NCBI GenBank assembly: GCA_017416765.1
Contig: JAFQBE010000020.1
Location: 19,570 to 83,569 of the forward strand
DNA from: Clostridia bacterium
GTDB taxonomy: Bacteria; Bacillota; Clostridia; Oscillospirales; Acutalibacteraceae
Direction: 5' to 3'
Length of the DNA stretch: 64,000 bases
Position numbers and translations under genes: made by a program. The notes beneath the pieces are model-generated. The model was not told the DNA's origin and searched no databases. It was given only the letters and a program-made list of their open reading frames with translations. Shown piece after piece: positions 7,273 to 24,422 of this stretch. How positions within the stretch are numbered: the stretch's first letter is position 1; every line of letters starts with the position of its first letter.

Positions 7273-7274
7273 TT

Positions 7275-8408: not shown

Positions 8409-8416
8409 TACAGAAC

Positions 8417-8452
8417 AACGGATATCTGTTTATGGCGGATATCCGTTATTTA
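8417..8452 (+). terminator. Hairpin terminator after the phosphoesterase pair
   Basis: A 9-bp stem (aacggatat/atatccgtt) with a 13-nt loop and a following T-rich run. It is directly followed by the -35 of the next promoter. Confidence 0.75.
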
Positions 8453-8481
8453 TTGACAAGTAAATATATTTGAAATATAAT
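8453..8481 (+). promoter_or_regulatory. Consensus sigma-A promoter for the fucosidase operon
   Basis: Perfect TTGACA, exactly 17 nt, perfect TATAAT. It sits immediately after the upstream terminator, so the fucosidase and hydrolase are independently transcribed. Confidence 0.85.
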
Positions 8482-8510
8482 TTCAGTATACTGTTTTTTG
8501 GAGTCATATT

Positions 8511-9521: not shown

Positions 9522-9538
9522 AAAGGAGAAACAGAGAT

Positions 9539-10993
9539 ATGAAAAGAATTATAGCTTTTATTGTTACTGCTGCTATAGTATTATGCTGTATACCCATGCT
9601 TAACGCAAGTGCTGCCGACAGACCTGAACTTAAAGAATACGGCTTTGTTGACTGCGGCGGTGCAAATATTGAATACGGCATTTACGGCGATATGAACGCA
9701 GAGGCATTATTGCTTCTGCCCCCAAATAACGGCGATATGCACTGCTTTGATTGGAGTGTACTTCCCGAGCTTGCAAATCACTACAAAGTTATCACTGTTT
9801 CCCCCAGAGGAACGGGCAAATCCGACTATATCGCCGAGGACGGACTCAGCTTTGAGCTGATGAGTGATGACCTTATATATCTGCTTGATTACCTCGGTGT
9901 TGAAAAGACACGCATTTTCGGTTTCAGCGACGGCGGTAATTTAGGTCTTGTATTTACAGTAAACCACCAGGAGCGTGTACATTCGCTTGCAATTATGGGT
10001 TCAAACATAAATCCCTTCGGCACTAAGTTTTTCGACCAGGTAAGCATAATCTGGCGATACCTCGGCTTTTATCTTACTGCCGCATTTTCACAAAACACAT
10101 CTGACCTGATACGCAGGGATATTCAGGGGCTTATGGTTTTCCATCCTACCCTCACCTTCGACGACCTGAAAACAATCAAGGTTCCCGTTCTCAACATCTA
10201 CGGTGAGGACGATATGATGTACCGAAGCCATTCACAGAAAATCACGCAATCAATTGAAGGCGCAAAGGAAATAATGATTGAAGGTGCAGGTCACAGCTCA
10301 GGCTTTGATTTTACCGATACAATTATTAACCCTGCCCTCCTTGAATTCTTTGCAGACGAAAACAGCGTTGCACCCGAAACACCCGATTCAGCTTACGTTA
10401 CAACCGATATTGCTGAGGTTGTTGAAATGTATAACAATGCAGTTATTAACTCTCGGACTAATCCGCCAACAGGATTTAACAGAATAAGCCTTGGCAGTGA
10501 TATTGATATAGAAGATATTCCCGAATTTATTACCGATACATTTGCTTCACCCGTAAAAAGAATGCTTAAAGAAAATTCATTAAAAACCAATGCTATACCC
10601 GGTAACGGTGCACTTAATGCGGAGGACGTAACGCTTGCAAAGGCTGTGACCAAAAACGGAATAACAACAATTGATTTAATGCTCAAAAGCCAGACTGACC
10701 CTGCGGATTCATCGCACGGAGCTGTAAGCAGAGGTATAGGAACTTTCGGCAGCATAGACAGTGCGCTTAAATTGATTGATTCTTCTGTTGTATCCGGCAG
10801 AGAAGACATAAGCCTTAACTATTCGGATGCGGTTATTCACTGCAAGGTTGACAGCAATACAGGCGCTATAATAAACGGCAAATGGAACTACAGGCTTGAA
10901 ATGAATTTTGGCGATGCCGATTTAAAATTTGCTTTCCTTCCCTTCACTTTAAGTAATGTACGCTTTGTATTCAATTTTGACATAACAATATAA
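9539..10993 (+). CDS. Secreted alpha/beta hydrolase with an extra C-terminal domain
   Basis: This 484-residue exported protein has a signal peptide (about 1-25, LNASA cleavage region). An alpha/beta hydrolase domain (about 30-275) carries the nucleophile elbow GFSDGG (S130), an acid in YGEDD (D224 or D225) and the base in GAGHS (H252). The remaining 200 residues show no motif I recognise. The start chosen is the ATG at 9539, with AAAGGAG ten bases upstream; an earlier ATG at 9518 overlaps the fucosidase stop but has no ribosome site. The gene is co-transcribed with the GH29 fucosidase and followed by a strong terminator. It may be an esterase acting on acylated glycans or lipids; the substrate is unknown. 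Confidence 0.75.
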   Translation: MKRIIAFIVTAAIVLCCIPMLNASAADRPELKEYGFVDCGGANIEYGIYGDMNAEALLLLPPNNGDMHCFDWSVLPELANHYKVITVSPRGTGKSDYIAEDGLSFELMSDDLIYLLDYLGVEKTRIFGFSDGGNLGLVFTVNHQERVHSLAIMGSNINPFGTKFFDQVSIIWRYLGFYLTAAFSQNTSDLIRRDIQGLMVFHPTLTFDDLKTIKVPVLNIYGEDDMMYRSHSQKITQSIEGAKEIMIEGAGHSSGFDFTDTIINPALLEFFADENSVAPETPDSAYVTTDIAEVVEMYNNAVINSRTNPPTGFNRISLGSDIDIEDIPEFITDTFASPVKRMLKENSLKTNAIPGNGALNAEDVTLAKAVTKNGITTIDLMLKSQTDPADSSHGAVSRGIGTFGSIDSALKLIDSSVVSGREDISLNYSDAVIHCKVDSNTGAIINGKWNYRLEMNFGDADLKFAFLPFTLSNVRFVFNFDITI

Positions 10994-11006
10994 GTACAAA
11001 AAACAT

Positions 11007-11046
11007 GGCTGCAACACCTTGAAAGGTGTTGCAGCCTGTTATATTT
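11007..11046. terminator. Strong convergent terminator
   Basis: A near-perfect 14-bp dyad (ggctgcaacacctt/aaggtgttgcagcc) with a small loop, T-rich on the plus side, between the hydrolase gene and the convergent OadG-like gene. Confidence 0.8.
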
Positions 11047-11058
11047 TATCAGTGATGT

Positions 11059-11340
11059 TTATTTGGATTCTTTATCCTTTTTCTTGAGCTTTGATGCTTT
11101 ATCAAGAATAACAACCGTAGCAACAATAATTGAAGTTACGATAAAGATACCGAGCATACCCTTACCCATAATCGGGAGTGACCATGAAAGGTTTTCGGGG
11201 GTAAAGCCAATCTCACCGCGTTCAACGGTTTCGAGCGTTGTTTCTTCTTCGGCACCGATTGTTTCTAATGCGCCGTCAGCAGCTGCAAGGAGTTCAGCTT
11301 CGTAAATTTCTTCTTTGATAACACTTGTGTTTTCGTTCAT
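11059..11340 (-). CDS. OadG-like small subunit of a sodium-pump decarboxylase
   Basis: This 93-residue protein has an acidic N-terminal half, a single membrane segment (KGMLGIFIVTSIIVATVVIL) and a Lys-rich tail. That is the size and layout of gamma subunits of sodium-translocating decarboxylases, though in those the helix is usually nearer the N-terminus. The assignment rests mainly on its position 18 bases downstream of the beta subunit gene with a good AGGAGGGT ribosome site. In the family, gamma holds the alpha and beta subunits together. No alpha subunit is nearby. Confidence 0.6.
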   Translation of the reverse strand: MNENTSVIKEEIYEAELLAAADGALETIGAEEETTLETVERGEIGFTPENLSWSLPIMGKGMLGIFIVTSIIVATVVILDKASKLKKKDKESK

Positions 11341-11358
11341 TTCTGTACCCTCCTTTTA

Positions 11359-12477
11359 TTACTGCTGTGCGAATGTGAGAATCAGACCGCCGGCGATAAC
11401 GGAAGCAACCTGACCGGAAACATTAACACCGATTGAGTGCATGAGAAGGAAGTTCTGAGGATCTTCTGCAAGACCCATTTTGTGAACAACGCGTGCAGAC
11501 ATCGGGAAAGCGGAAATACCGGATGCACCAATCATCGGGTTAATCTTTTTATCCTTCTTGAGGAAGATGTTCATAAGCTTTGCGAGCATTACACCGCCGA
11601 AGGTATCAAATACGAATGCAACAAGACCGAGACCCATGATAAGGAATGTTTCAAGACGAAGGAAATCTTCGGCAACCATTCTTGATGCAATTGTGATACC
11701 GAGGAAGATTGTAATAAGGTTTGCAAGAACATTCTGTGCCGTATCGGAAAGAGAGTTGAGAACACCGCATTCACGAATAAGGTTACCGAACATAAGGAAA
11801 CCGATAAGAGCAACAGCATCGGGTGCGAAAAGACCTACTATAATTGTAACAATAATCGGGAAGAGAATCTTTGTGCGCTTGGAAACCTTTTTGCCTGCGT
11901 ACTTCATACGAATCATACGCTCTTTTTTTGTTGTGCAGAGCTTGATAATGGGCGGCTGAACAATGGGAACAAGAGCCATATACGAATAAGCCGCAACCAT
12001 GATAGCTGCTGTATAGCTTGAGCCGAGCTGCTGTGCAACGAAAATAGAGGTCGGACCATCTGCCGCACCGATAATAGCAACGGAAGCAGCATCGAAAATG
12101 TTGAAGCCTAAAAGTGATGCCATTGTGAGTGTGAAGAAAATACCGAACTGTGCCGCCGCACCGAAGAACATAAGCTTCGGGTTGGTAAGCAGGGGTTCAA
12201 AGTCAATCATCGCACCGATGCCGATAAATAGAATAAGCGGCATAAGCTCGTGTGCTTCGTTACTGATACCGATATCGAAAAGGTGGTCGATAACAGCCTT
12301 TGCACCCGATTCGGGCAGGTTAACGAGAATTGCGCCAAAGCCCATGGGAAGAAGCAGGGTCGGTTCCATTTCCTTTTTGATTGCAAGGAAAATAAGGACA
12401 CCGCCGATAACCCACATAATGAGCTGTTTGGGGTCAAGGTTGGCAAAATTGCCAAAAATGTCCATAAAGACTTCCAT
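11359..12477 (-). CDS. Sodium ion-translocating decarboxylase beta subunit (OadB/GcdB type)
   Basis: This 372-residue membrane protein is the part of oxaloacetate, methylmalonyl-CoA or glutaconyl-CoA decarboxylases that couples carboxybiotin decarboxylation to sodium export. The family's conserved intramembrane motif GAADGPTS (137-144, with key Asp D140) is present, as are PIVQPP and a final GASGISAFPMSARVVHK stretch. Around ten hydrophobic segments are seen. The start is ATG at 12477 behind GAAAGGATG; an upstream in-frame codon would enclose this site. The promoter is at 12516-12544. The biotin carboxyltransferase (alpha) and biotin carrier genes are absent from the window, so the substrate cannot be told. 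Confidence 0.9.
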   Translation of the reverse strand: MEVFMDIFGNFANLDPKQLIMWVIGGVLIFLAIKKEMEPTLLLPMGFGAILVNLPESGAKAVIDHLFDIGISNEAHELMPLILFIGIGAMIDFEPLLTNPKLMFFGAAAQFGIFFTLTMASLLGFNIFDAASVAIIGAADGPTSIFVAQQLGSSYTAAIMVAAYSYMALVPIVQPPIIKLCTTKKERMIRMKYAGKKVSKRTKILFPIIVTIIVGLFAPDAVALIGFLMFGNLIRECGVLNSLSDTAQNVLANLITIFLGITIASRMVAEDFLRLETFLIMGLGLVAFVFDTFGGVMLAKLMNIFLKKDKKINPMIGASGISAFPMSARVVHKMGLAEDPQNFLLMHSIGVNVSGQVASVIAGGLILTFAQQ

Positions 12478-12515
12478 TGAACAAACATCCTTTCTTAAAT
12501 GCAAAATCGATAAAA

Positions 12516-12544
12516 ATTATATCAGTTTTTATATCATTTTTCAA
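12516..12544 (-). promoter_or_regulatory. Sigma-A promoter for the OadB/OadG pair
   Basis: On the minus strand TTGAAA, 17-nt spacer, TATAAT with an extended TGa. The leader to the start is about 30 nt. Confidence 0.75.
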
Positions 12545-12691
12545 CATAAAATTTAAATATCCGTAAATTTATGAAATTTAAATAAACTTTTTTGAAAAAA
12601 GATGTTTTTTTCGGCTTGTTTTGTGGCTTTTAACTATAAAATGTGTATATTCAGAATTACACTTGCTATATATTGGTGATAAAAATAAAAT

Positions 12692-12731
12692 TGACCGCCT
12701 GAGATTTTTGTTTCTCAAGCGGTCTATTAAA
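12692..12731 (-). terminator. Terminator of the GNAT gene
   Basis: On the minus strand a stem of gaccgc-t-tgaga with tctca-g-gcggtc closes an A-rich loop and is followed by a T-containing AT run. It lies directly downstream of the acetyltransferase stop. Confidence 0.65.
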
Positions 12732-12742
12732 TTAAATATCAA

Positions 12743-13294
12743 TCAGAGCTTCATACCGTAGGCAACATCTGTACCCAAAATTTCAAGCTGTTCAAAGCCG
12801 TATTTCTGATAAAAGCTGCCTCCAACGGTGTTACCTGTGCCTGCGGTAAGCATAACGCCCTTTATGCCCTTTGAACGCAGGTGTTCAAAAAGCGTATTAA
12901 TCAGCTTACCTCCCCAGCCCATGCGCTGATATTGAGGAAGTAAATCAATATGAAGGTGTGCCGGGTATGTATCGCGGTATTTTGCGTGCAAATCATAAGC
13001 CTCTGCAGCCCATTTTATATTGTCTTCGCCCAAGTGAGCAATCAGCGGAGCATACTGAGCATCGTATACGGGCTTGAATTTATCAAAATTCTCCGCACAG
13101 AAGATGTAGCCTACAGCTTTGCCGTCATCATCAAGCACAAAGGTATTTTCGGGTTCCTGTTCAACATAGTAATCGCAGAAAATGTGCAGAATAAACTCGC
13201 AAAGCTCTGCAGGCATTCCTCCGCCCTCGCTGTTCAGGCAGGCAAAACGGACATTTTCTTTATCCTTGGGTTCATATTTTCTGATACTTAACAT
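12743..13294 (-). CDS. GNAT-family N-acetyltransferase
   Basis: This 183-residue acetyltransferase transfers an acetyl group from acetyl-CoA to an amine. The acetyl-CoA binding motif A is visible as LPQYQRMGWGGKLINTL, with the downstream YQKYGFEQ motif B. An internal segment of about 40 residues (around 60-100) is longer than in minimal GNATs; proteins of this layout resemble GNATs found beside glycoside hydrolases such as O-GlcNAcases. That is of interest because a GH84 gene lies in the divergent operon. The start is the ATG at 13294 after CAGGAG. The substrate is unknown. Confidence 0.8.
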   Translation of the reverse strand: MLSIRKYEPKDKENVRFACLNSEGGGMPAELCEFILHIFCDYYVEQEPENTFVLDDDGKAVGYIFCAENFDKFKPVYDAQYAPLIAHLGEDNIKWAAEAYDLHAKYRDTYPAHLHIDLLPQYQRMGWGGKLINTLFEHLRSKGIKGVMLTAGTGNTVGGSFYQKYGFEQLEILGTDVAYGMKL

Positions 13295-13328
13295 AATTTT
13301 CTCCTGAAACATAATAAATTATGTTAAT

Positions 13329-13358
13329 ATAATATTACAATCGGACAAATAAAGTCAA
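13329..13358 (-). promoter_or_regulatory. Sigma-A promoter for the GNAT gene
   Basis: On the minus strand TTGACT, 18-nt spacer, TATTAT. Its -35 lies only 22 bases from the -35 of the divergent ceramidase-family operon. Confidence 0.6.
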
Positions 13359-13379
13359 TAAAAATTCACAAAAAAATCA

Positions 13380-13407
13380 TTGAAAAGCGCGTAATATAGT
13401 GTATAAT
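13380..13407 (+). promoter_or_regulatory. Sigma-A promoter for the ceramidase-like/GH84 operon
   Basis: TTGAAA, 16-nt spacer, consensus TATAAT. The divergent GNAT promoter is close by, so one regulator could control both. The leader is about 40 nt. Confidence 0.7.
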
Positions 13408-13452
13408 GCTAATTATAATATATTAATTATATTGCGGAGGTGCTTTTAAAAT

Positions 13453-14937
13453 ATGGACAAGAACAAAATAACGCGAAAAGGTATCGAGCTTTTATCAAAG
13501 GCTATTATCCATGCAATGCCCAAAAACTACTTTACAGCCGAAAATGAAGCAAAAAAATATATGCTGTCGGGTGATGACAAATTCACATCAGTTCCCGGTG
13601 ACAACTGCTTCTGGTGCGGATTTGGTAAAAGAGTGCTTACTCCGGACAATATAAATGCAGAAAAATACTACATAGCAGGCTACGATTCAAACAACCCCGC
13701 AACAGGTGTTCTTGACGATATGTATGCAAGAGCCGTTTACCTTGCAGACGGCACAGGAAGAGGCGGCGTTATAATGTGCGCCATTGACGCAGTAGGCATA
13801 AGCCGTAAGGATATAAACGAAATTAGAAGGCTTGTTCTTGAAAATGAAGATTATCCTACACTTCGCTCGGAGCTGCGTTCAATAAACATCTGCGCAACAC
13901 ACAGCCACTCCGCAATTGATACACAGGGCTTATGGGGCGAAAAGCTTTACAAAAGCGGCAGAAATGAAAAGTTCATGAAAAGGCTTCACCAAAAGGCTGC
14001 CGAGGCAATAATTGAAGCCTATGAAACAAGCGTAATCGGCAAGCTGTACTACGCAGTGAAGGAAACCGAAGATTTACAGTTTGACTGCCGTACACCCAAC
14101 ACCTTCGATTCCAACCTTACACGAATCCGTTTTGAAGCTGAAAATTCCGACCATCAGATTTATATTGTAAACTTTGCTTCGCACGCAGAATTGCTCGGCG
14201 ACGAAACAAAGAATGTCAGCGCAGACTTCCCCGCATACATGATTAAGGAAATTGAAGACCTTAAATACAACACCGATGCCGTATTTTTCAACGGCGCAAT
14301 CGGCGGCATGATTTCGGCAAAGGAAATCAAAAAGGTTTACCGCAACGAAATTGACTGCGAAGCATATACAAAAGAGTTCGGCAAAACGCTTGGTGAACTC
14401 GTAACATCAATGGAAGATGAAAAGCCGCTCAAGCCCATAATTAACATTAAATCCAAACAGGTTAAAATTGCTGCGGATAACTTTGTACTGATTCTGGCAA
14501 GAGTACTCAAGGTACTCAACAACGATATTGCAAGAAGCAGCAAGCGCGACACCGCTTACATCTGGTCCGAAGTCGGCTACCTTGAACTCGGCGATGGCGA
14601 AATAGGTATGTTCCTTATCCCCGGCGAGCTTTTCCCCGAACTTTACAACGGCGAATTCCTTACCGCTGACGAATCGGCAAACGCAGTTGATGCACACTAC
14701 AGGGTACTAAAAGACCTTGGCGGGGCAAAGCATAACTTTGTTGTAGGGCTATGCAACGATGAACTCGGATATATCATTCCCGATAACGACTTTATACTCA
14801 ACGAAGGCATGCCCTATATAAACTCCGCAAAGGACAGATTTGACAGAAACCATTACGAAGAAACCAATTCAACAGGCAGAAACACCGCAAGAACTCTGCT
14901 TGAAGAAATGGATAAGCTTATAGCTTCAACAAAATAA
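13453..14937 (+). CDS. Neutral/alkaline ceramidase-family protein, no signal peptide
   Basis: This 494-residue protein matches the layout of the neutral/alkaline non-lysosomal ceramidase N-terminal family, zinc amidases that cut N-acyl bonds. Family landmarks in order are FGKRVLTP near 57, GVLDDMYARA near 85, the zinc-binding THSHS (H150, H152), FASHAE (H244), PGELFPEL (E392), GLCNDELGY (Y440) and HYEETNS near 467. The loop NGAIGGMIS (280-288), where the family carries a catalytic Ser in a D/Q-x-SPN-like context, lacks a clear equivalent. No signal peptide is present, unusual for this family. The start follows GGAGGTG. It is the first gene of a five-gene operon with a secreted paralogue next to it. 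The true substrate is probably not ceramide but another N-acyl compound. Confidence 0.75.
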   Translation: MDKNKITRKGIELLSKAIIHAMPKNYFTAENEAKKYMLSGDDKFTSVPGDNCFWCGFGKRVLTPDNINAEKYYIAGYDSNNPATGVLDDMYARAVYLADGTGRGGVIMCAIDAVGISRKDINEIRRLVLENEDYPTLRSELRSINICATHSHSAIDTQGLWGEKLYKSGRNEKFMKRLHQKAAEAIIEAYETSVIGKLYYAVKETEDLQFDCRTPNTFDSNLTRIRFEAENSDHQIYIVNFASHAELLGDETKNVSADFPAYMIKEIEDLKYNTDAVFFNGAIGGMISAKEIKKVYRNEIDCEAYTKEFGKTLGELVTSMEDEKPLKPIINIKSKQVKIAADNFVLILARVLKVLNNDIARSSKRDTAYIWSEVGYLELGDGEIGMFLIPGELFPELYNGEFLTADESANAVDAHYRVLKDLGGAKHNFVVGLCNDELGYIIPDNDFILNEGMPYINSAKDRFDRNHYEETNSTGRNTARTLLEEMDKLIASTK

Positions 14938-14952
14938 AGGAGATTGAACAAT

Positions 14953-16704
14953 ATGAAAAACTCTTTTAAACGCGTTATTTCCGTCATTCTTTCAGTTTTT
15001 ATGATGTTCTCTGCCTCCACCTTTGCATTTGCTGCATACGGTGAAGCAGCCGACAACAGCGCAATTATAGCTGTAGCAGGTGCAATAAACAGCCTGCTTG
15101 AAGCTGTATTTGACGGCTTCGGTTCACTTTTTCCCAACAACTTCAAAACAGTTGATGAGTATTACGCAGGCGAAAGCGAAAACTTTTATGAGGGCACAGC
15201 TGAATTTATCGACTCCCCTGCCGAAGGTGCAAGATGGCAGCTCGGCTTCGGTGAAGCAAGCATAGTACCCGAAAACCTCAAAAGCGGTGCAAAGAAATAT
15301 TACACCGGCGGTTATTTCACACAGCAGATAAGCGGTGTATACGATGACCAGGGCGTAAATGCCATTGCTTTGAGTGACAACTCAAACAGAGGTACGGTTA
15401 TTATGGCAAGCATTGACGGTATAGGTGTAAACAATGCCGATATACGCGCTATCCGTGCAGAGGTTGAACGCAAGCTGTTACAGCACGGCATATTCAGCGA
15501 CATCGTTGCAATAAACATAAACAGCACACATTGTCACACAGTTATTGATACACAGGGTTTCAGCCTTGAGCTTATCGGTAAAGTTTTCCAGAATCTGTTT
15601 TCATTTCTCCCCTTCATTGAAGCAACAAGAAGCATCAATAAAGATTTCCTTGAAATTATGATTGACGGTGCAAGCGATGCAATTGTTGAAGCATACCTCA
15701 ACATGGAATTCGGCGAGCTTTACTATTACGAAACGGCAAAAATCGGCAAGAGCGAGCAGAACGGCGTTTATCTTGACGATGAGTACGCTTACCTGCACAA
15801 CAAGCGCTACAAGACGGAAGGTTTCCAGAATTTCTTTGCCTGCTTCAAATTTGTTCCGGACAACGCTGAATCAAAGCCCACAGTTTTCACTAACATTGGC
15901 GCACACCCCACAACAATTGACAGAGCAACCTCCCTGCTTTCAGCCGACTTTCCCGCATACATGGAAGAAAAAATCAATGCAGCAGGCATGAATTTTGTAT
16001 TTGTTCAGGGTGCACAGTCCCCCATTTCAGTCCAGAAAAGTGCTGTTCAGACAGAAGAAATAGTAGCGGAAATTGAAGCACAGATTGCCGCTGACCCGAA
16101 GGTTGCGGATTACAGAGCTGCAAAATCGCTCGGCTACGAATTTGCAAGGCTCATACTTGAAGCAGAAGAAAGCGCAGCAAAAGTTGCACCCGTTATAAAT
16201 GTACGCATGGCTGAATGCACCGTACCGCTTGACAACGGCTTATTACAGCTTGGTGCAACAGCACAGCTGCTCGGCACAACAACAGTTTATGACGATAAAT
16301 CTGCCAGCGGATATTCAATCATTACAGAAGTAGGCTATGTTGAACTTGGCACAGATATAGTTATGCTTACTGTGCCAGGTGAGCTTATTCCCCAGCTTGT
16401 TTACGGCAATGTTGTAGACAAAACCGAAGCTTACCTCGGCACAGACTGGGAAATTGATTGCACAGCAAAGCTGCTTAAAGATAAAAAGGTGCTTGTAATG
16501 GGTCTTTGCAACGATGCCATAGGCTACATAATTCCCGATAACGATTACGCACCCTTTATTGCCGATTCACTTTGGGATTCCGATTTAGGCGAAAAGCTTT
16601 TCGGCACACCGCACAGACATTATGAAGAAACCCTTACAACCGGCAGTAAGGCAGCTTCATCGGTAATGACTGCACTTAACGCAGTTGTAAACGAAGTAAA
16701 ATAA
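14953..16704 (+). CDS. Secreted neutral/alkaline ceramidase-family protein
   Basis: This 583-residue exported paralogue of the preceding gene has a signal peptide (about 1-27, ending STFAFA). It also has an extra N-terminal stretch of about 65 residues before the catalytic fold. Family landmarks are LGFGEASIVP, GVYDDQGVNA, STHCHT (H193, H195), GAHPTTID, QGAQSPIS (with a Ser in the expected nucleophile loop), VPGELIPQL, GLCNDAIGYIIP and HYEETLT. Zinc ligands and the putative nucleophile therefore look complete. The start is the ATG at 14953 behind AAAGGAG; an in-frame TTG nine bases earlier has no spacing. It is expected to cut an N-acyl or related bond outside the cell; the substrate is not known. 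Confidence 0.78.
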   Translation: MKNSFKRVISVILSVFMMFSASTFAFAAYGEAADNSAIIAVAGAINSLLEAVFDGFGSLFPNNFKTVDEYYAGESENFYEGTAEFIDSPAEGARWQLGFGEASIVPENLKSGAKKYYTGGYFTQQISGVYDDQGVNAIALSDNSNRGTVIMASIDGIGVNNADIRAIRAEVERKLLQHGIFSDIVAININSTHCHTVIDTQGFSLELIGKVFQNLFSFLPFIEATRSINKDFLEIMIDGASDAIVEAYLNMEFGELYYYETAKIGKSEQNGVYLDDEYAYLHNKRYKTEGFQNFFACFKFVPDNAESKPTVFTNIGAHPTTIDRATSLLSADFPAYMEEKINAAGMNFVFVQGAQSPISVQKSAVQTEEIVAEIEAQIAADPKVADYRAAKSLGYEFARLILEAEESAAKVAPVINVRMAECTVPLDNGLLQLGATAQLLGTTTVYDDKSASGYSIITEVGYVELGTDIVMLTVPGELIPQLVYGNVVDKTEAYLGTDWEIDCTAKLLKDKKVLVMGLCNDAIGYIIPDNDYAPFIADSLWDSDLGEKLFGTPHRHYEETLTTGSKAASSVMTALNAVVNEVK

Positions 16705-16723
16705 AAGATACGGTGATATTCAG

Positions 16724-17620
16724 ATGAAATATTATCTTGGTATAGACGGCGGCGGCACCCGCACTACAGCCGCCGTTGCCGACGAAAACGGCATACTGTT
16801 CAAGGTTACGGGTAAAACAATCAATTTTTATTCCGTTGGCTATAATGCAGTACGCGAAAACCTGCGCGAAATAATTTACGATATCAATGACAGACTCGGT
16901 AAAATCACTTTTGAAGGTGTATTTATAGGCTGTTCCGCACTTGACGGAAAGGCTGACGATATGCTGATACAAAAAATCTGCGGCGATATAATTACAGCCA
17001 ATCACATCGGCATGGACAGCGATGTTTACATTGCACTTAAAGCGGTGAATACCGAGCATTGTCCTTGCGTTGCAATATGCGGCACAGGCTCGATGGCTGC
17101 GGGAGAAGATAAAAACGGAAACCTGCACATTTCGGGTGGCTGGGGCCACATCGTCGGCGATGAAGGCTCGGGCTATGCAATAGCTGTAAATGCGCTGAAA
17201 AAATGCTGTATTATGTGCGATAATGGCGAGAGTACTCCCCTGCTTGAAAGCGCAGAAAAATTTTTCGGTGTTGATGATTTCAGAAAAGCCATTGATATTA
17301 TCTATTCCGCAGAAACATCAAAGGACAGGCTTGCAGGCTTTGCCGCAAATGTAGGCCGGCTTGCTACAGGCGGCGATGAAGCTGCCAAGAAAATAGTTGC
17401 AGATGAAGCTGTAAAATTTGCAAAAACTGTTTCAATACTGTTAAAAAAAGTACAAGAGTGTACCGTGCTCGGACTTTACGGCGGAATTTTCCAGAACAAC
17501 GCACTTTTTACGGCAACCTTCATGCACGAAATCAAATCAGCTTACCCTGAAATAAAAACAGAATTACTTGATACACCGCCTGAAGAAAGTGCGGTAAACA
17601 TAGCGAGGACATTGAAGTGA
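16724..17620 (+). CDS. BadF/BadG-family kinase, N-acetylglucosamine kinase-like
   Basis: This 298-residue protein has the ASKHA ATPase fold of the BadF/BadG/BcrA/BcrD family that includes eukaryotic-type NAGK. Phosphate 1 motif GIDGGGTRT is at the N-terminus, phosphate 2 motif CGTGSMA is near 125, and SGGWGHIVGDEGSGY follows, the sugar-binding signature of GlcNAc kinases. The likely reaction is ATP plus GlcNAc (or a related amino sugar) to the 6-phosphate. It is third in the operon and overlaps the SIS gene by four bases, and the GH84 gene downstream would supply GlcNAc. It is cytoplasmic. Confidence 0.85.
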   Translation: MKYYLGIDGGGTRTTAAVADENGILFKVTGKTINFYSVGYNAVRENLREIIYDINDRLGKITFEGVFIGCSALDGKADDMLIQKICGDIITANHIGMDSDVYIALKAVNTEHCPCVAICGTGSMAAGEDKNGNLHISGGWGHIVGDEGSGYAIAVNALKKCCIMCDNGESTPLLESAEKFFGVDDFRKAIDIIYSAETSKDRLAGFAANVGRLATGGDEAAKKIVADEAVKFAKTVSILLKKVQECTVLGLYGGIFQNNALFTATFMHEIKSAYPEIKTELLDTPPEESAVNIARTLK

Positions 17621-18354
17621 AAAAATATATTGACTACATAAACAAAACAAAAGTAATTATAGACCGTATTGAAAAAGACGGCGGCGAAGCAATAGAAAAA
17701 GCCGCAGAGGTTTTAAGCAATACGCTGATAAACGGAAAGCGCCTTTACCTTTTCGGTACTGGACATTCGCATATGCTTGCCGAAGAGCTTTTTTACCGCG
17801 CCGGCGGACTTGTAAATGTTCAGCCCATACTTGTTGAACCGCTCATGCTTCACATTTCCGCTTCCGAAAGTACGGTTGCAGAGCGTGAAGAAGGCATAGC
17901 CGAAAGAATATTCAACGAATACGGCATGAGCAAAAACGATGCGGTTATAATCATTTCAAATTCAGGCAGAAACGGCGTAATTGTTGATATGGCTCTGCTT
18001 TGCAAGGAAAAGGGATTAACCGTAATTGCACTTACAAACCTTGAACACACCTATGCCGGTGCTTCACGCCATGCGAGCGGAAAGCGCCTTTGCGAAATTG
18101 CTGATATAGTGCTCGATAATTTCGGATGTGTCGGCGATGCCTGCGTTGAAGTAGAAAATGTCAAGGGCAAAATCTGTCCGACCTCTACTGTTACGGGCGC
18201 ACTTATTCTCAATGCAATTGTGGCACAGGCTGTTGAAAAATGCGCAGAGCAAGGCTTTGAACCCGAGCATTTTGCAAGCTCAAACATTGACGGCGGCGAC
18301 GATATAAACAACCTGCTCGTTGAAAAATACAAAAAGGAGATTAAACACCTTTGA
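17617..18354 (+). CDS. SIS-domain phosphosugar-binding protein (UPF0309-like)
   Basis: This 245-residue protein has one SIS domain. The phosphosugar-binding loop is seen as LFGTGHSHMLAEE (about 46-58), a second Ser-rich loop is IISNSGRNG (about 112-120), and it ends with a SSNIDGGDD motif. It resembles the UPF0309 group rather than MurQ etherase or GlmS. The likely role is binding, isomerising or cleaving a phosphorylated amino sugar made by the kinase encoded upstream. The GTG start overlaps the kinase stop by four bases, and its own stop overlaps the GH84 start, so translation is coupled. The exact reaction is unknown. Confidence 0.75.
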   Translation: MKKYIDYINKTKVIIDRIEKDGGEAIEKAAEVLSNTLINGKRLYLFGTGHSHMLAEELFYRAGGLVNVQPILVEPLMLHISASESTVAEREEGIAERIFNEYGMSKNDAVIIISNSGRNGVIVDMALLCKEKGLTVIALTNLEHTYAGASRHASGKRLCEIADIVLDNFGCVGDACVEVENVKGKICPTSTVTGALILNAIVAQAVEKCAEQGFEPEHFASSNIDGGDDINNLLVEKYKKEIKHL

Positions 18355-19991
18355 TTTACCCTAAACCTCAAAAAATGAACCTGAACGGCAAAGCCGTAAA
18401 AATTAACGGAGTAAATATATACGGCAATTTTCAGAATACTGCTGAAAAGGTTTTTGAAAGCTACGGTATTGCAGTCAACGGCGAATACGAAATTAAAACA
18501 GTTATAACTGACAGTAAAAAAACTACATATATTGACTCCCTTTCAAGACTTTGCAATGAAAAATACTATATAACCGTTAAAGAAAATACGGCTGTAATTG
18601 AAGCGGCAACTCGCCGCGGTGTATTCCGCGCGGTAAACACACTTGCAAAGCTTATTACAAAAAACGAACTTTGCGAAGGCGAAATTGAAGACTATCCTCT
18701 GTTTGAAAAGCGCGGATATATTGAAGGATTTTACGGACCCACATGGGAACACGAAAAGCGCATAAGCGTAATGAAGCTCATGGCAAAATACGGCATGAAC
18801 ACCTACCACTACGCACCAAAGGATGACCTTTACCACCGCGAAAAATGGCGTGACCCATACCCCGAAAAAGAATTAAATGAGCTTAAAATGCTTTTTGACA
18901 CGGCAAGTGAAAACGAGCTCGATTTCAGCTGGTCTGTCGGTCCCGGACTCACCTACTGCTACACAAGTGAAAGCAATTTTGAGCAGCTGATAAACAAAAT
19001 TAAAAATGTTTACTCAATCGGTGTGCGCAATTTCGGCTTACTGCTTGACGATATTTCGTGGGAATTCCAATACGAAGAAGATGCAAAAAAATACGACAGC
19101 ATTGTAAATGCACATATAGACCTGATAAACAAAGCCTATAACACACTGAAAGCTTTTGATCCGTCAATCACTCTTACCGTTTGTCCAACGGAATACTTTG
19201 GCGATGAAAACGGATATTATATATCAAAGCTTGGTCAGAACATACCGAGCGATGTTAATTTGTTCTGGACAGGTGCGGAAATATGCTCACGCGTACTCAC
19301 CTGCCGCGAAGCAGACGAATTCAAGCGTTCAACGGCGCACAGACCCCTTTACTGGGATAACTACCCCGTGAACGATGCAGAAATGTTCCAGGAAATGCAT
19401 TTAGGTCCTGTACTCGGCAGAGATAAACAGCTTTACAAATCCTGCGAAGGGCTTATTTCAAATGTAATGGAATATGCCGAATGTTCCAAGCTGCCGCTTA
19501 TAACGGTTGCAGATTATCTCTGGAATCCCGAAAGCTACGACCCCGATGAATCCATTTTTAATGCACAGCGTGAAATTCTCGGCGATAAGGCTGAAATATT
19601 CGGCTATATTGCTGACCATCTGCAGGTTTCATGTGTACGCAGACATGCAAGCCAAATGATGAGCGACAAGCTGATGCACATAAATTTCCTTGCCGCAACA
19701 AACAGAAAAGCCGAAGCCTTGCAGGAATTCAGCGAGTACAACGGCAAAATGCGCGAATGCCTTGAAGTTATCAGCAACACAAGCGTACCGATGTTTGCAG
19801 AAATGCAGAAATGGGTAAGAAAATTTGCGATGTGCTGCGATGTACTTGAAGCAATTTACGCAGTGTGGGAAACCCCCGATGAAAAGAATAAAGCAGAGCT
19901 TGAAGCCCTGCTTGAAAAATACAACTCCGATGCCGTCGTTATGACAGGCTTCTGCCTGCGTGAACAGGCAGAAAAGGCATTGAAGATGTGA
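18351..19991 (+). CDS. GH84 beta-N-acetylglucosaminidase (O-GlcNAcase-like), cytoplasmic
   Basis: This 546-residue GH84 enzyme hydrolyses terminal beta-linked GlcNAc by substrate-assisted catalysis. An N-terminal GH20b-like alpha/beta domain (1-115) leads into the barrel with RGYIEGFYGPTW (121-132), YHYAPKDDLYHREKW (152-166) and the catalytic Asp pair in LLLDDI (D233, D234). A helical C-terminal region follows. There is no signal peptide, unlike secreted clostridial NagI/NagJ, so it should act on imported substrate. The start is TTG at 18351 with AAGGAGA nine bases upstream, overlapping the SIS stop (TTGA). It is last in the operon. Confidence 0.9.
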   Translation: MIYPKPQKMNLNGKAVKINGVNIYGNFQNTAEKVFESYGIAVNGEYEIKTVITDSKKTTYIDSLSRLCNEKYYITVKENTAVIEAATRRGVFRAVNTLAKLITKNELCEGEIEDYPLFEKRGYIEGFYGPTWEHEKRISVMKLMAKYGMNTYHYAPKDDLYHREKWRDPYPEKELNELKMLFDTASENELDFSWSVGPGLTYCYTSESNFEQLINKIKNVYSIGVRNFGLLLDDISWEFQYEEDAKKYDSIVNAHIDLINKAYNTLKAFDPSITLTVCPTEYFGDENGYYISKLGQNIPSDVNLFWTGAEICSRVLTCREADEFKRSTAHRPLYWDNYPVNDAEMFQEMHLGPVLGRDKQLYKSCEGLISNVMEYAECSKLPLITVADYLWNPESYDPDESIFNAQREILGDKAEIFGYIADHLQVSCVRRHASQMMSDKLMHINFLAATNRKAEALQEFSEYNGKMRECLEVISNTSVPMFAEMQKWVRKFAMCCDVLEAIYAVWETPDEKNKAELEALLEKYNSDAVVMTGFCLREQAEKALKM

Positions 19992-20050: not shown

Positions 20051-20998
20051 TTATTTATTAGTTACTATAAATACTATTCTTTCCTGCATGGATGGACCGC
20101 CATGATCTGTTCCGTATCCGCCATGGTCGGATGTAATGATTATAAGCCAGTCTTCTGTAGCGTATGTATCTCTGCTTTCAACAGCTTCAAGAGTCATATA
20201 AGCAAGAACATCGTTAAGCTTAAAGCCCGATTCATAAATCGGGTTATTGGTTGAGAAACCGAAAGTATGACCTGCATGGTCGGTTCCTTCATAAATTGCA
20301 AAGATAAAATCGGAGCAGTCGTCCTGTCTGATATCTTTAATTGCTGTCAGGGCTGAAGCAACATCTTCATTGCAGCAATTGAAAGCAACATTGAGTTTAT
20401 TATCCTCGCAATACTGCTTTTCAAGCTTGTATGTAGAATCATCATTTACAAAATGGCCCTTCCATGATGTAATAAAGTTTGCAGAATCAATAACTTTATT
20501 CTCAACAAGTGTAGTAAACAAAGTTTTATATTCAAGAGTTTTATTGACACCGTTAGAGTAAATACCGTTTTGATCAGCCCATACACCGGTAAGCACAGCG
20601 CACCAACCGGGTGCAGTTGAAGTATCCTGTGTGTTTTCAGCGGGAAGGTTAACGCCGCCGCAATATGCAAGCTTAACAAAAGCACCTGCATCAACCATTT
20701 TGCCGATACCGCTGTAGGAATCGCCAACAAGGGTAAGCGCATCCGCACGGCAACCGTCATAGCCGATAACAATAGCTTTTTTCTCTGTTTTTCCCTCGGG
20801 AAGCGGAGAAGCAAAATGCTCGTTAATCATATTGTAAATTTCTGTTTGGGGAACAGCGGATTCAATTGTGTTTTCAATACCGATTGAACCGACTCTGCTG
20901 ACATATGCATCAACCGTATCGTCAGCATCTTGTTTGTAAAGACCTAAAAGCGCAGGGATCATCATAAAAATGCTGATTATTTTTGTAAAAATGCTCAT
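20051..20998 (-). CDS. Alkaline-phosphatase-superfamily (nucleotide pyrophosphatase/PDE-like) protein
   Basis: This 315-residue protein belongs to the alkaline phosphatase/sulfatase superfamily. The metal motif GYDGCRADAL (about 79-88), a T/S-rich nucleophile region TSTAPGWCAVLTG, the metal ligands EGTDHAGH and the late SDHGGYGTDHGG are all present, as in phosphodiesterase/NPP proteins. A short N-terminal hydrophobic segment (SIFMMIPALLGL) suggests a signal anchor, so it probably acts outside the cell. The start follows AAAGGAG. It is a single gene with its own promoter, adding a fourth phosphoesterase to the region. The substrate is unknown. Confidence 0.75.
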   Translation of the reverse strand: MSIFTKIISIFMMIPALLGLYKQDADDTVDAYVSRVGSIGIENTIESAVPQTEIYNMINEHFASPLPEGKTEKKAIVIGYDGCRADALTLVGDSYSGIGKMVDAGAFVKLAYCGGVNLPAENTQDTSTAPGWCAVLTGVWADQNGIYSNGVNKTLEYKTLFTTLVENKVIDSANFITSWKGHFVNDDSTYKLEKQYCEDNKLNVAFNCCNEDVASALTAIKDIRQDDCSDFIFAIYEGTDHAGHTFGFSTNNPIYESGFKLNDVLAYMTLEAVESRDTYATEDWLIIITSDHGGYGTDHGGPSMQERIVFIVTNK

Positions 20999-21033
20999 AC
21001 CTAAAAGCTCCTTTTACTTTAGTAATTTAATAA

Positions 21034-21062
21034 ATTATATATTTTCCACACAAAAAAAGCAA
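21034..21062 (-). promoter_or_regulatory. Sigma-A promoter for the phosphodiesterase-like gene
   Basis: On the minus strand TTGCTT, 17-nt spacer, consensus TATAAT, about 36 bases before the start codon. Confidence 0.6.
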
Positions 21063-21110
21063 GCAAAAATAAAGATTTAAGAACGATTTAATTATTTATT
21101 CATACCGCTC

Positions 21111-21139
21111 TTGTAAAAACAGAAAATATGTGATATACT
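21111..21139 (+). promoter_or_regulatory. Sigma-A promoter for tRNA-Leu
   Basis: TTGTAA, 17-nt spacer, TATACT with extended TGa, ending 17 bases before the mature tRNA. Confidence 0.7.
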
Positions 21140-21156
21140 ATGTTGAAGTTAATTAT

Positions 21157-21241
21157 GCGGGTATGGTGGAATTGGCAGACACGTAAGATTTAGGATCTTA
21201 TGCCTCTCGGCGTGCAGGTTCGACCCCTGTTACCCGCACCA
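21157..21241 (+). tRNA. tRNA-Leu (anticodon TAG)
   Basis: This 85-nt class II tRNA starts GCGGGTA and ends TACCCGC-ACCA with encoded CCA. The anticodon stem TAAGA/TCTTA frames loop TTTAGGA, giving TAG; a long variable arm (tgcctctcggcgt region) and the T arm GGTTCGACCC follow. Confidence 0.95.
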
Positions 21242-21283
21242 AAAACAGAAAAATCACACTTGTGGTTTTTCTGTTTTTTATTT
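21242..21283 (+). terminator. tRNA-Leu terminator
   Basis: An A/T-rich stem (cagaaaaatcac with gtggtttttctg) followed by TTTTTTATTTTA. Confidence 0.75.
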
Positions 21284-21291
21284 TATTTCTG

Positions 21292-21320
21292 TTGAAAAGA
21301 ATCTTTAGCGGTTGTATAAT
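21292..21320 (+). promoter_or_regulatory. Sigma-A promoter for the GH27 gene
   Basis: TTGAAA, 17-nt spacer, consensus TATAAT, about 36 bases before the ATG. Confidence 0.75.
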
Positions 21321-21356
21321 GGTATAAAACTAAAAATTTAAAGGACTGATAAATTT

Positions 21357-22664
21357 ATGCATAAAAGACTTGCGCCTACTCCGCCTATGGGCTGGAACAG
21401 CTGGGACTGTTACGGTGCTGCCGTTAATGAAGAACAGCTTCTTGCAAACGCTGATTATATGGCTGAGCATCTGAAGGATTACGGCTGGGAATATGTTGTA
21501 TGCGATATCCAGTGGTCAGAACCTACTGCGGACAGCTTTTATTATCACTATTTTGCCGACCTTTGCATGGATGAATATTCCCGTCTGATTCCGTCTGTTG
21601 AAAGGTTTCCCTCCTCTGCGGGCGGCAAAGGTTTTAAACCAATAGCCGATTATATTCATTCGCTCGGACTTAAATTCGGTATACATATCATGAGGGGTAT
21701 TCCCAGACAGGCTGCGCACAGGAACACAAAAATCAAGTGTGAAGGTATAACGGCAAGGGATATTGCAAAGCCGTCTTCCGTTTGTTTGTGGAATCCCGAT
21801 ATGTACGGACTTGAAACAGAGAAAAAGGGCGCACAGGAATATTACGATTCTATATTTGAACTGTATGCCTCATGGGGTGTTGACTACATTAAGTGCGATG
21901 ATATTGCAAACACAGAAATGTATCCCGATAATCCCTATTCGGCGAGAAAAGAAATTGAAATGCTGCGAAAAGCTATTGATAAATGCGGCAGAGATATGGT
22001 ACTCAGCCTTTCACCCGGACCTGCTCCCGTTTGGGAACACGAGCATCTTGCTTCAAATGCTAATATGTGGCGAATGACAGGTGATTTTTGGGATGAATGG
22101 AGCAAGCTTCACGCAATGTTTGAACGCTGCTATGCTTGGCAGGATTATGTTCAGCCCGGTGCATGGCCGGATTGCGATATGCTGCCGCTCGGCAGAATCC
22201 AGAAAACCGAAAAGCTTGAAAAGTACAGAAACCGTTACACACGCTTTACACACGATGAACAGATTACAATGATGACCCTTTGGGGCATTTTCCGTTCACC
22301 GCTCATGATGGGCGGCGAAATGCGCGAAAACGACAAATTCACACTTTCACTGTTACAGAACAGAGAGCTTATAGATATGCTCAAAAATTCAAGCGGTGCA
22401 AAACAGTTCAAACGCGAAGAAACTGACGGCAAGGGCGAAATTATCTGGACATCAAAGGGCGAAAACTGCAAATATGTTGCTCTTTTCAATACAGATGATA
22501 AAGAAAGAGAAATCAGCTTTGATATTTCGGATATTGCAGTTGGCGGTATCGAATACAGCGTTTGGGATATGTGGGCACACGAAGAATACACTGTAACACG
22601 CGGCAATTTTTCCGCAAAGGTTAATTCACACGGTGCAAGACTTTTCAAAATAAAAATTAAATAA
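21357..22664 (+). CDS. GH27 alpha-galactosidase, cytoplasmic
   Basis: This 435-residue clan-D glycosidase removes alpha-linked galactose (or N-acetylgalactosamine). The signature PPMGWNSWDCYG is at the N-terminus, the nucleophile Asp is in DYIKCDD (D181), and the acid/base Asp follows an Arg by four residues in WRMTGDFW (R239, D243). A short C-terminal beta domain (about 345-435) closes the fold. The inserts around 60-80 and 120-140 are like bacterial paralogues often annotated as alpha-galactosidase without tested substrate. There is no signal peptide, so it acts on imported sugars, perhaps delivered by the convergent GPH transporter. The start is ATG after AAAGGAC. Confidence 0.85.
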   Translation: MHKRLAPTPPMGWNSWDCYGAAVNEEQLLANADYMAEHLKDYGWEYVVCDIQWSEPTADSFYYHYFADLCMDEYSRLIPSVERFPSSAGGKGFKPIADYIHSLGLKFGIHIMRGIPRQAAHRNTKIKCEGITARDIAKPSSVCLWNPDMYGLETEKKGAQEYYDSIFELYASWGVDYIKCDDIANTEMYPDNPYSARKEIEMLRKAIDKCGRDMVLSLSPGPAPVWEHEHLASNANMWRMTGDFWDEWSKLHAMFERCYAWQDYVQPGAWPDCDMLPLGRIQKTEKLEKYRNRYTRFTHDEQITMMTLWGIFRSPLMMGGEMRENDKFTLSLLQNRELIDMLKNSSGAKQFKREETDGKGEIIWTSKGENCKYVALFNTDDKEREISFDISDIAVGGIEYSVWDMWAHEEYTVTRGNFSAKVNSHGARLFKIKIK

Positions 22665-22678
22665 TACTTAACTCGCAA

Positions 22679-22720
22679 AACAGCCGCAGGCATTGAACCT
22701 GCGGCTGTTGATTTTGTATG
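22679..22720. terminator. Convergent terminator hairpin
   Basis: A perfect 12-bp stem (aacagccgcagg/cctgcggctgtt) with a 7-nt loop and a T-rich tail on the plus strand, between the GH27 gene and the transporter gene. Confidence 0.8.
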
Positions 22721-22732
22721 AGGTTTTTGAAA

Positions 22733-24328
22733 TTATTTCTTCGCCTTGCGTGCTTCGATTTCTGCGACCATTTCACGCTGGCGCTTTTCTGTAATTGTGT
22801 AGAAGAACATGGGTACTGCGCAGGCAAACATGCTGATAACACCGGAAAGGATAAGTACGTTCCAGAGTGCATCGGCATTGCCGACGGTGTATGTTTTGGT
22901 ATCAATCTGTGCAATGCTCAGAGCCATAACGCCGATGAATGCACCGACAGCCATACCGATTTTGTTGATAAGGGTCTGCATAGCAAAGCAGATACCTTCA
23001 CCGCGTTCGCCTGTTTTCCATTCAAGGTAGTCAACAGTATCGCCAATCATAGCGTAAGTGATAATGTTGTTGACACCCTGCGGGATACCGAGGAGGACAA
23101 GACCGACTGCACAGATTGCAATCTTCCACGGTGCGTCGTAGCCGACGAAATACATTATAGCCATAACTACGCCGCCGAAAAGGTGAACAACGATATAGGA
23201 CCATTTCTTTGTGAATTTCTTGGACATCCACGGAACGAGAAGAGAAGCGACAAGACCGCCGGGAACAACAAGAAGTGTGATTACACCGTAAAGGCCTTCG
23301 TTCTGAAGGATGTACTTGGCAAAGTAGAGACCGCCGGTGTAGGAATAAACCATTCTTGCACCGCCGAGAACACCGGAAAGAACAATAAGAAGAAGCTCTT
23401 TGTTTCTGAAAAGGAGCTTGAGGTTGTGACCGAATGAGGGAGGATTATCGTCTGAAGTGAATCTTTCCTTTGTGTTCTTGAAACCGTAGAAGAACATAGG
23501 AACAGCGGAAAGAACAAGAACAACCGCGCAGATGAAATAAACAATTTTGAGGGTATCGGCGTTTGCAATTTCCTGACCGTTCATAACTGTGCCGACAAAA
23601 GTGTTTGCAGCTTCTTCTGCTGTAATACCCTGGTTCATAACCATATTGGAAATTGCCTCTGCCTTATCTTTCATGATAAGAGCGATATCATCAGCAGTAT
23701 ACTTGAACTTTGCTGTTACTGCACCGGTTATCATAGGAACGAAAACGGTAACAATACCTGCACCGACAGTACAGAACATACGAGCAACGGTAAGAATATT
23801 GCCGCGGACGGTTGTATCGTTTGTAAGGCAGGTTGAAAGGCCCCAATAAGGAACGTCTGCAATAGTGTAAAGAACAGACCAGACAACATAAAGAACCGCT
23901 ATTGTGACAAAGGTCTGTGTTGTTTTTGAACCGTCATAAACAGCTTCTGCGCTGAAAACGGGAAGAAAGCACAGAATTGTTGAAATTGCAATGGGAATAG
24001 CCATCCATTTAAGATAAGGGCGGCACTTACCCCACTTTGTACGGGTTTTGTCAACCACGCTGCCCATAATCGGATCATTAAAAGCATCGAAAACACGAGC
24101 AGCAAGCATAAGGATAGCAACAGCTACCGCACCGCTTATGTGACCAACCTTAACACCTTCTGCACCAAAGAGAAGGGCATCCGTCATAAATACTGTGATG
24201 TACGAGCCAATAATGGTGCAAATAAAATTCTGGCCGAAACCGGCAACGCTGTACGCAATTGCCTCTTTCGGCTGAACACCCTTACCGGGAGTTGTACCGA
24301 AAAGCTTGTGAAGAAAAGATGAATTCAC
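22733..24328 (-). CDS. GPH-family (MelB-like) sugar:cation symporter
   Basis: This 531-residue membrane protein has about twelve hydrophobic helices and the glycoside-pentoside-hexuronide signature: ARVFDAFNDPIMG with the paired Asp residues used for sodium coupling, then KTRTKWGKCRPYLKW in loop 2-3. A 70-residue hydrophilic insert between helices 6 and 7 (around 220-265) is longer than in MelB. It probably imports a di- or oligosaccharide or glycoside. The start is GTG at 24328 after GGAGG. It has its own promoter, yet lies downstream of the ADP-ribosylglycohydrolase-like gene and faces the GH27 gene, so its substrate may be a galactoside; this is inference. Confidence 0.85.
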   Translation of the reverse strand: MNSSFLHKLFGTTPGKGVQPKEAIAYSVAGFGQNFICTIIGSYITVFMTDALLFGAEGVKVGHISGAVAVAILMLAARVFDAFNDPIMGSVVDKTRTKWGKCRPYLKWMAIPIAISTILCFLPVFSAEAVYDGSKTTQTFVTIAVLYVVWSVLYTIADVPYWGLSTCLTNDTTVRGNILTVARMFCTVGAGIVTVFVPMITGAVTAKFKYTADDIALIMKDKAEAISNMVMNQGITAEEAANTFVGTVMNGQEIANADTLKIVYFICAVVLVLSAVPMFFYGFKNTKERFTSDDNPPSFGHNLKLLFRNKELLLIVLSGVLGGARMVYSYTGGLYFAKYILQNEGLYGVITLLVVPGGLVASLLVPWMSKKFTKKWSYIVVHLFGGVVMAIMYFVGYDAPWKIAICAVGLVLLGIPQGVNNIITYAMIGDTVDYLEWKTGERGEGICFAMQTLINKIGMAVGAFIGVMALSIAQIDTKTYTVGNADALWNVLILSGVISMFACAVPMFFYTITEKRQREMVAEIEARKAKK

Positions 24329-24362
24329 TTTTTTTACCTCCGCGTTAATTTATATTTTTTCA

Positions 24363-24391
24363 ATTATATCACTTTTAGAAGAATAATACAA
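24363..24391 (-). promoter_or_regulatory. Sigma-A promoter for the GPH transporter
   Basis: On the minus strand TTGTAT, 17-nt spacer, TATAAT with extended TGa, in the 94-nt gap after the upstream gene. Confidence 0.7.
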
Positions 24392-24422
24392 GTAAAGTTG
24401 AATATTTAATATATTATTTTGC

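Follow-up and report, generated by a model that had tools for sequence, protein, structure and literature searches.

What does a gut bacterium do with two ceramidase-like proteins encoded directly ahead of a set of amino-sugar genes? The question is raised by a five-gene operon in a 64,000-nucleotide stretch of DNA from a Clostridia bacterium of the family Acutalibacteraceae (assembly GCA_017416765.1, contig JAFQBE010000020.1, positions 19,570 to 83,569), which we refer to as the window. We compared the operon with 250 genomes of the source's family, with Pfam and with all PDB sequences. We propose tentatively, at a probability of about 0.38, that the operon salvages an amino sugar carrying an amide-linked peptide or acyl part that the amidase pair would remove. 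Overall, this would be amino-sugar or muropeptide salvage, a known process, with a possible new amidase family inside it.

The operon and its divergent partner

The names cerC, cerX, cerM, cerP and cerB1 were coined in the present analysis, and we use cer for these genes together; G, C and L numbers are our handles for genomes, contigs and loci. The operon and its upstream partner are laid out as follows.

12743-13312, minus strand: GNAT acetyltransferase gene, divergent from the operon (PF00583, 42.1 bits)
13313-13452: divergent intergenic region of 140 bp between the GNAT gene and cerC, likely a two-way promoter
13453-14937, plus strand: cerC, predicted ceramidase-superfamily metallo-amidase of 494 aa, probably cytoplasmic
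14944 (TTG) or 14953 (ATG) to 16704, plus strand: cerX, predicted exported ceramidase-superfamily metallo-amidase of 586 aa
16724-17620, plus strand: BadF-type amino-sugar kinase (PF01869, 90.4 bits)
17617-18354, plus strand: SIS protein of the UPF0309 family (PF13580, 148.4 bits; NF002805, 304.6 bits)
18351-19991, plus strand: GH84 beta-N-acetylglucosaminidase (PF07555, 325.8 bits), no signal peptide seen

An earlier note on this DNA had described five genes spaced by 15, 19, -4 and -4 bases, and the open reading frames (ORFs) on the plus strand bear this out; the first gap is counted from the ATG of cerX and is 6 bases from the TTG. Its division of the amidases into an exported and a cytoplasmic one agrees with a signal-like hydrophobic segment at the N-terminus of cerX and the lack of one in cerC, as judged by hydropathy only. 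It had overlooked a sixth partner, the divergent GNAT gene. The region between this gene and cerC contains a promoter-like TTGAAA-16-TATAAT at 13380-13407 on the plus strand (11/12 match), from a scan that as a whole did not exceed shuffled sequence (20 found, 18.4 expected). The same region is compact in 18 other loci, with 68-147 bp between called ORFs.

Relationship to neutral ceramidases

Neither amidase-like protein reaches the Pfam gathering score for neutral ceramidase (PF04734). As a single sequence cerC has no Pfam match, and cerX scores 16.2 bits against a cut-off of 32.1. Of the five PF04734 places in the same genome, all outside the window, three score above the threshold, and for two of these the neighbours had to be included in the frame. 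We then built profiles from 32 cerC relatives (A1) and from 21 cerX-type and mixed rows (A2) and searched all PDB sequences. With A1 the matches were 4wgk, the human neutral ceramidase (E 1.5e-9), and 2zws from Pseudomonas (E 0.002), with the next chain at E 0.95. A2 matched 4wgk (E 1.4e-6) and 2zws (E 6e-6), followed by an unrelated chain at E 0.022. The profile alignment to the solved ceramidases spans about the first half.

The residues H150, H152, H244, E392 and Y440 are invariant across the 32-row cerC alignment. The THxH motif and the second His region of the cer family align to 4wgk; the PGE and NDxxGY (Tyr) regions show little or no variation within the family and match the solved enzymes weakly, not significantly. 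We presume from neutral ceramidase that the His, His, Glu and Tyr residues serve as metal ligands. Because of the profile matches and the kept metal-site motifs, cerC and cerX are remote members of the neutral-ceramidase superfamily whose metal site is apparently intact. The label "neutral-ceramidase-family" given by the earlier note thus stands at the level of profile homology but not at the Pfam threshold.

Neutral and alkaline ceramidases (PF04734; 4wgk, 2zws) share a homologous catalytic domain, THxH and the other metal-site motifs with the window proteins. There are also differences. Known ceramidases carry a C-terminal immunoglobulin-like domain, and a Pfam scan of cerC and cerX found none. 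In addition to their sub-threshold Pfam scores, the cer proteins frequently occur as tandem pairs from two clades, and in the window one partner lacks a signal segment and the neighbours are amino-sugar genes. Among the papers listed by a search of titles and abstracts, none concerns a characterised member of this cer sub-family.

Recurrence of the neighbourhood

Relatives of cerC occur in 53/250 family genomes, and the window's own genome holds at least nine cer genes at five places. A GH84 gene close to that of the window (at least 62% identity) is found in 7/250 genomes, always in the arrangement BadF-SIS-GH84. The earlier note had named a lack of recurrence in related genomes as a refuting outcome; instead, at least one cer gene stands directly upstream of BadF-SIS-GH84 in all seven. 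Because of this, the association of cer with the kinase, SIS and GH84 genes exceeds chance, and the five genes are tight and conserved. The upstream cer genes vary: the window and G148 have cerC-cerX, G230 and G190 only cerC, G222 and G133 only cerX, and G175 a different pair. Both G222 and G133 hold cerC with its GNAT elsewhere (L041, L042), so the window operon joins two modules that also exist separately.

We extended the comparison to more distant GH84 genes. Leaving aside long multi-domain frames, the survey gave 31 places with at least 38% identity, of which 29 were read (all but G245:C242 and G144:C62). Our statistics cover those 29 and two named loci, 31 in total, with several loci cut by contig ends and two copies in one genome that are not independent. 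A cer gene lies within 6 kb in 15/31. A sugar kinase accompanies every one of these 15, as does exactly one lyase candidate (a UPF0309 SIS protein in seven, MurQ in eight). The 16 loci without cer have a kinase in 10 cases and an SIS gene in 4. A contig scan for relatives yielded two named relatives only. Among the neighbour clusters that could be named, the recurrent partners of cer are GH84, sugar kinases, SIS lyases, MurQ, NamZ, GH38, NagA and a GNAT of the O-GlcNAcase-linked family. Family-wide (L078-L117) there is also a large second cer clade, mostly 36-41% identical to cerC, for which no constant neighbours were seen.

The kinase, SIS and GH84 proteins

The N-acetylglucosamine (GlcNAc) salvage module claimed in the earlier note is supported, with the kinase (PF01869), the SIS protein (PF13580) and the GH84 protein (PF07555) all well above their cut-offs. 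The best solved relative of the kinase is the N-acetylmuramic acid (MurNAc)/GlcNAc kinase 8zo3 (E 6.6e-27), and human NAGK follows at E 6e-14. PF01869 assigns the BadF fold; the score against NF046058 (NagK) is 57.7 bits, below the equivalog cut-off of 370. By the accessible part of PMC10465942, the kinase residues (GGW, no bulky Glu/His) are compatible with MurNAc, a pattern that is not diagnostic and to which human NagK is also an exception. The GH84 protein has its catalytic domain and acid dyad (LLLDDI in the translation) and is related to 5diy (E 7.3e-76) and the BT_4395 O-GlcNAcase (E ~1e-69).

The SIS protein clears the NF002805 cut-off of 135 bits, and its nearest solved relatives include 3cvj (E 4.8e-53) and NagS (UPF0309 protein SCO4393, 9eol; E 5.8e-42). 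It is a relative of the GlcNAc-6-phosphate dehydratase NagS and, more remotely, of MurQ. NagS converts GlcNAc-6-phosphate to 6-phosphate-chromogen I (PMC12680351, accessible part). Read by eye, 9/11 of the NagS residues named there are identical in the window protein, the exceptions being Ser91 (Thr) and Gly227 (Ser). The window protein thus shares a family and most named active-site residues with Streptomyces NagS but is remote from it, and among the four homologues reported as assayed in that part of the source, the three that do not come from Streptomycetaceae showed little or no activity on GlcNAc-6-phosphate. A UPF0309 SIS gene, a gene for a 930-aa protein (DUF6259 in L156) and MurQ-MurK stand together in L156 (G090) and L157 (G195). 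The SIS gene is one gene away from MurQ-MurK in both, and therefore UPF0309 SIS proteins are not simply MurQ substitutes.

Pairing of two cer clades

We compared the cer proteins with one another in a tree of 92 sequences, made by a quick method with a midpoint root and showing several long branches. The tree has two sides, one with cerC and the other with cerX, cerM and cerB1. When cer genes are adjacent on the same strand, 21/22 pairs combine one member of each side, the exception being an X-X pair (L094); sides were assigned by nearest reference, in agreement with the tree, and many of the 22 pairs are orthologous and not independent. The order of the two genes differs between locus B (described below) and loci of types A (the window's) and C, so the pairing is not one inherited block. 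Since nearly all adjacent pairs join the two deep clades, the pair looks functional, which suggests that the partners cooperate or act on either side of a single step.

Two further arrangements contain such genes. In locus C, cerC-cerX is divergent from GNAT and is accompanied by a KdsB-type cytidylyltransferase (TIGR00466, 227.7 bits, cut-off 155.2), a BNR_2 protein and two unknowns. The window's own genome has the following copy, and loci resembling it occur in G187, G145, G148 and G230.

L048 (G000:C36), 6927-15509: cerC-cerX divergent from GNAT; 403-aa unknown, KdsB-type protein, BNR_2 sialidase-like protein, 480-aa membrane-like unknown

In locus M, cerM-GH38-cerX is joined by genes for an MFS transporter, a DUF4838 protein and a GNAT of a second type. 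It is exemplified by a long run in another genome.

L038/L039 (G190:C13:79000-106000), one strand: window-type operon, exported 603-aa unknown, cerM-GH38-cerX-GNAT9-DUF4838

A sister locus among MurNAc recycling genes

The strongest indication of a substrate comes from a paralogous arrangement, locus B (MurK-MurQ / GNAT / GH84-cer-cer), found on contig C8 of the window's own genome and at seven other loci.

L049 (G000:C8:60000-76568), 4535-12782: MurK-MurQ, GNAT, GH84-cer-cer, NamZ

NamZ, which we take to be the same protein as YbbC, is present in seven of the eight copies (the own genome's and six of the other seven), and GNAT is not divergent in one copy (L061). In the own-genome copy MurQ scores 329.8 bits (cut-off 302) and NamZ 276.2 bits (PF07075). 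Judging by N-termini, its cer pair is membrane-anchored or exported; GH84 and NamZ are without a signal. NamZ occurs in 12/250 family genomes, five of them with NamZ in locus B; in most of the seven others, an amidase beside NamZ was not identified.

In Bacillus subtilis, the recycling cluster is murQ-murR-murP-amiE-nagZ-ybbC (accessible part of PMC5061867). The sister locus likewise has MurQ, NamZ, a glucosaminidase and an amide-hydrolase family, with MurK at the position of the phosphotransferase system. It differs in having GH84 rather than a GH3 NagZ and a ceramidase-like pair rather than AmiE. Because the B. subtilis cluster has nagZ and amiE there, GH84 and the cer pair would occupy the NagZ/AmiE position.

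MurQ exceeds its cut-off in 24/250 genomes, six times beside cer, twice beside an AmiE-like gene (G213, G170) and never beside both. AmiE-like genes were sought by tblastn with two references, taken from both positive loci themselves, within 7 kb where the contig allowed, and in ten chosen proteins by Pfam. Together with the B. subtilis comparison, these counts support, but do not prove, the model that cer proteins fill the amidase place in MurNAc recycling loci. G213, which has no cer match, holds an AmiE-like PF00144 protein, MurK, NlpC/P60, NamZ, RpiR, MurQ and GH3 together. Unassigned genes of 583-714 aa that adjoin MurQ at further loci were considered as hidden cer relatives, and they matched neither cer profile. 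The window's genome encodes two beta-lactamase-fold proteins, neither on the sister-locus contig, which is uninformative.

Proposed function

We propose the following steps. Exported cerX and cytoplasmic cerC, acting as zinc amidases, would strip the amide-linked part from an amino-sugar conjugate. GH84 would then free terminal beta-GlcNAc in the cytoplasm, the BadF kinase would phosphorylate position 6 of the sugar, and the SIS protein would carry out a MurQ- or NagS-like elimination on the 6-phosphate. GNAT may acetylate an amine left free by the amidase or by a prior modification, perhaps restoring an N-acetyl group or capping the freed amine. Because the sister-locus pair sits with MurK, MurQ and NamZ, a muropeptide-like sugar-peptide appears to be the most likely class of natural substrate. 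The similarity of the kinase to a MurNAc/GlcNAc kinase, the kinase and single lyase candidate that accompany GH84 wherever cer is close, and the pairing of the two cer clades also speak for the proposal. The position of the sister operon among peptidoglycan-recycling genes of the same genome also suggests that these "ceramidases" cut sugar-linked amides and not ceramide.

Several observations weigh against this proposal. MurQ and NamZ are absent near the window operon, which in this respect differs from the B. subtilis cluster, and the peptidoglycan link rests on the paralogous locus. An obligatory amidase slot in MurQ loci is unsupported: in 16/24, both cer and AmiE-like genes are lacking over 7 kb, as far as the contig reaches. 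According to the accessible part of PMC12680351, a Clostridium amylolyticum homologue 33% identical to NagS had negligible GlcNAc-6-phosphate activity. Finally, the closest relatives of cerX in the tree are the copies in the GH38 mannosidase locus, and G190 carries the window-type operon and locus M in a single run on the same strand, which would suit glycoprotein glycans.

Alternative explanations

Acyl exchange and glycoprotein glycans are the serious rivals. In the first, which we consider possible but unlikely, the cer proteins take an N-acyl group, be it acetyl, glycolyl or fatty, off an amino sugar, GNAT re-acetylates the sugar and GH84 can then cut. N-deacylation is the natural reaction of neutral ceramidase, and GH84 catalysis requires a 2-acetamido group. 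The GNAT belongs to a bacterial family whose members are relatives of the C-terminal domain of human O-GlcNAcase. Its top two solved relatives are 4bmh (E 1.1e-20) and 3zj0 (E 1.8e-8), which we take to be a Streptomyces homologue and OgpAT, respectively, and its QRMGWGG segment is compatible with what we take to be the acetyl-CoA loop pattern. Of 24 cerC relatives with at least 49% identity in the loci retrieved, the window included, 20 have GNAT nearby (at most 0.2 kb away in 12 and about 3.2 kb in eight, all eight in the sister locus), and in four it is missing from the stretch retrieved. Neighbours were counted by tblastn; ORF calling misses genes under antisense frames (L045, L142, L155, L158, L161). 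In Oceanicola, a GNAT of the same family follows GH84 and binds acetyl-CoA (PMC3814719, accessible part). The O. granulosus OgOGA-OgpAT pair and human O-GlcNAcase thus resemble the window in associating GH84 with this family, but the window GNAT is a separate divergent gene linked more to cerC than to GH84. A tie to GH84 alone was rejected, since GNAT adjoins cerC in loci without GH84. Against acyl exchange, the other nearest solved relatives are mostly protein N-terminal acetyltransferases, and GNAT is also found apart from cer, together with BadF-SIS-GH84 (L060) or KdsB (L059). Moreover, the sister cer pair is anchored or exported whereas the window GNAT has no signal segment, which argues against a molecule directly shared there.

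The second rival, which we regard as improbable, is that the amidases hydrolyse the amide between GlcNAc and Asn in N-glycans or glycopeptides while GH38, GH84 and the kinase dismantle the glycan. In the window's own genome a cerX copy (73% identical) and cerM flank a signal-less GH38, and the genome encodes two GH92 proteins; the continuity of operon and GH38 locus in G190 also fits. We know of no N-glycan amidase with a ceramidase fold, however, and the five window genes include nothing specific to N-glycans. Nor does the sister locus, with MurK, MurQ and NamZ, fit a glycoprotein route.

The two remaining explanations are less likely. True ceramidases that degrade host glycosphingolipids or other N-acyl lipids would account for the homology to the human and Pseudomonas enzymes and the kept motifs, and the exported 603-aa protein of the G190 run has a serine-hydrolase-like motif by eye (no Pfam match). 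We nonetheless think such a role highly doubtful. One of the two proteins seems cytoplasmic, the neighbours that could be named are genes for amino sugars or glycans, and no glycosylceramidase, sphingoid or other lipid gene appeared among the recurrent neighbour clusters that could be named, many neighbours having no annotation. The glycolipid breakdown suggested by the earlier note finds no specific backing here, and the paralogous locus points instead to muramic-acid or amino-sugar recycling. That cerC stands in for NagA and deacetylates GlcNAc-6-phosphate in an all-in-one GlcNAc pathway, as an operon shared by kinase, SIS, GH84 and a probably cytoplasmic amidase might suggest, was rejected as the leading explanation and is very improbable: a normal NagA (270.7 bits, cut-off 225.65) is encoded in this genome, the three further genomes of the genus that were searched each have one too, a cerP-type relative is divergent from an above-cut-off NagA gene (amidohydrolase domain) in G080 and G190, and an exported partner could not see a phosphorylated sugar. 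The arrangement of a cerP-type gene divergent from a NagA gene was seen in L086, L089 and L125.

Other features of the window

5833-10993: exported purple-acid-phosphatase-like protein, metallophosphatase, GH29 fucosidase-like protein and exported alpha/beta hydrolase, consecutively
20051-25772, downstream of the operon: type I phosphodiesterase (minus), tRNA 21157-21238 (plus), GH27-like protein (plus), MFS_2 transporter (minus), ADP-ribosylglycohydrolase (minus)

Implications

We return to salvage of an amide-bearing amino sugar as the preferred explanation. Among the papers listed by a search of titles and abstracts, none describes such cer/amino-sugar loci, most subscription journals being outside the coverage. 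A broader and equally tentative model is that one branch of the neutral-ceramidase superfamily evolved into amidase pairs that act on sugar-linked amides, those of muropeptides or of other amino-sugar conjugates, in concert with GH84, a kinase of the MurNAc/GlcNAc type and a lyase of the MurQ or UPF0309 type. It would be a new peptidoglycan or amino-sugar amidase family that, with GH84, replaces the functions of AmiE and NagZ in some Clostridia. The loci also give context for the acetylation target of the bacterial GNAT relatives of the human O-GlcNAcase tail and for the role of UPF0309 SIS proteins outside Streptomyces. Peptidoglycan recycling is linked to host sensing of peptidoglycan fragments. 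If the model is correct, cell-wall or amino-sugar recycling would gain a new amidase family, and proteins annotated as ceramidases in gut Clostridia would be misnamed.

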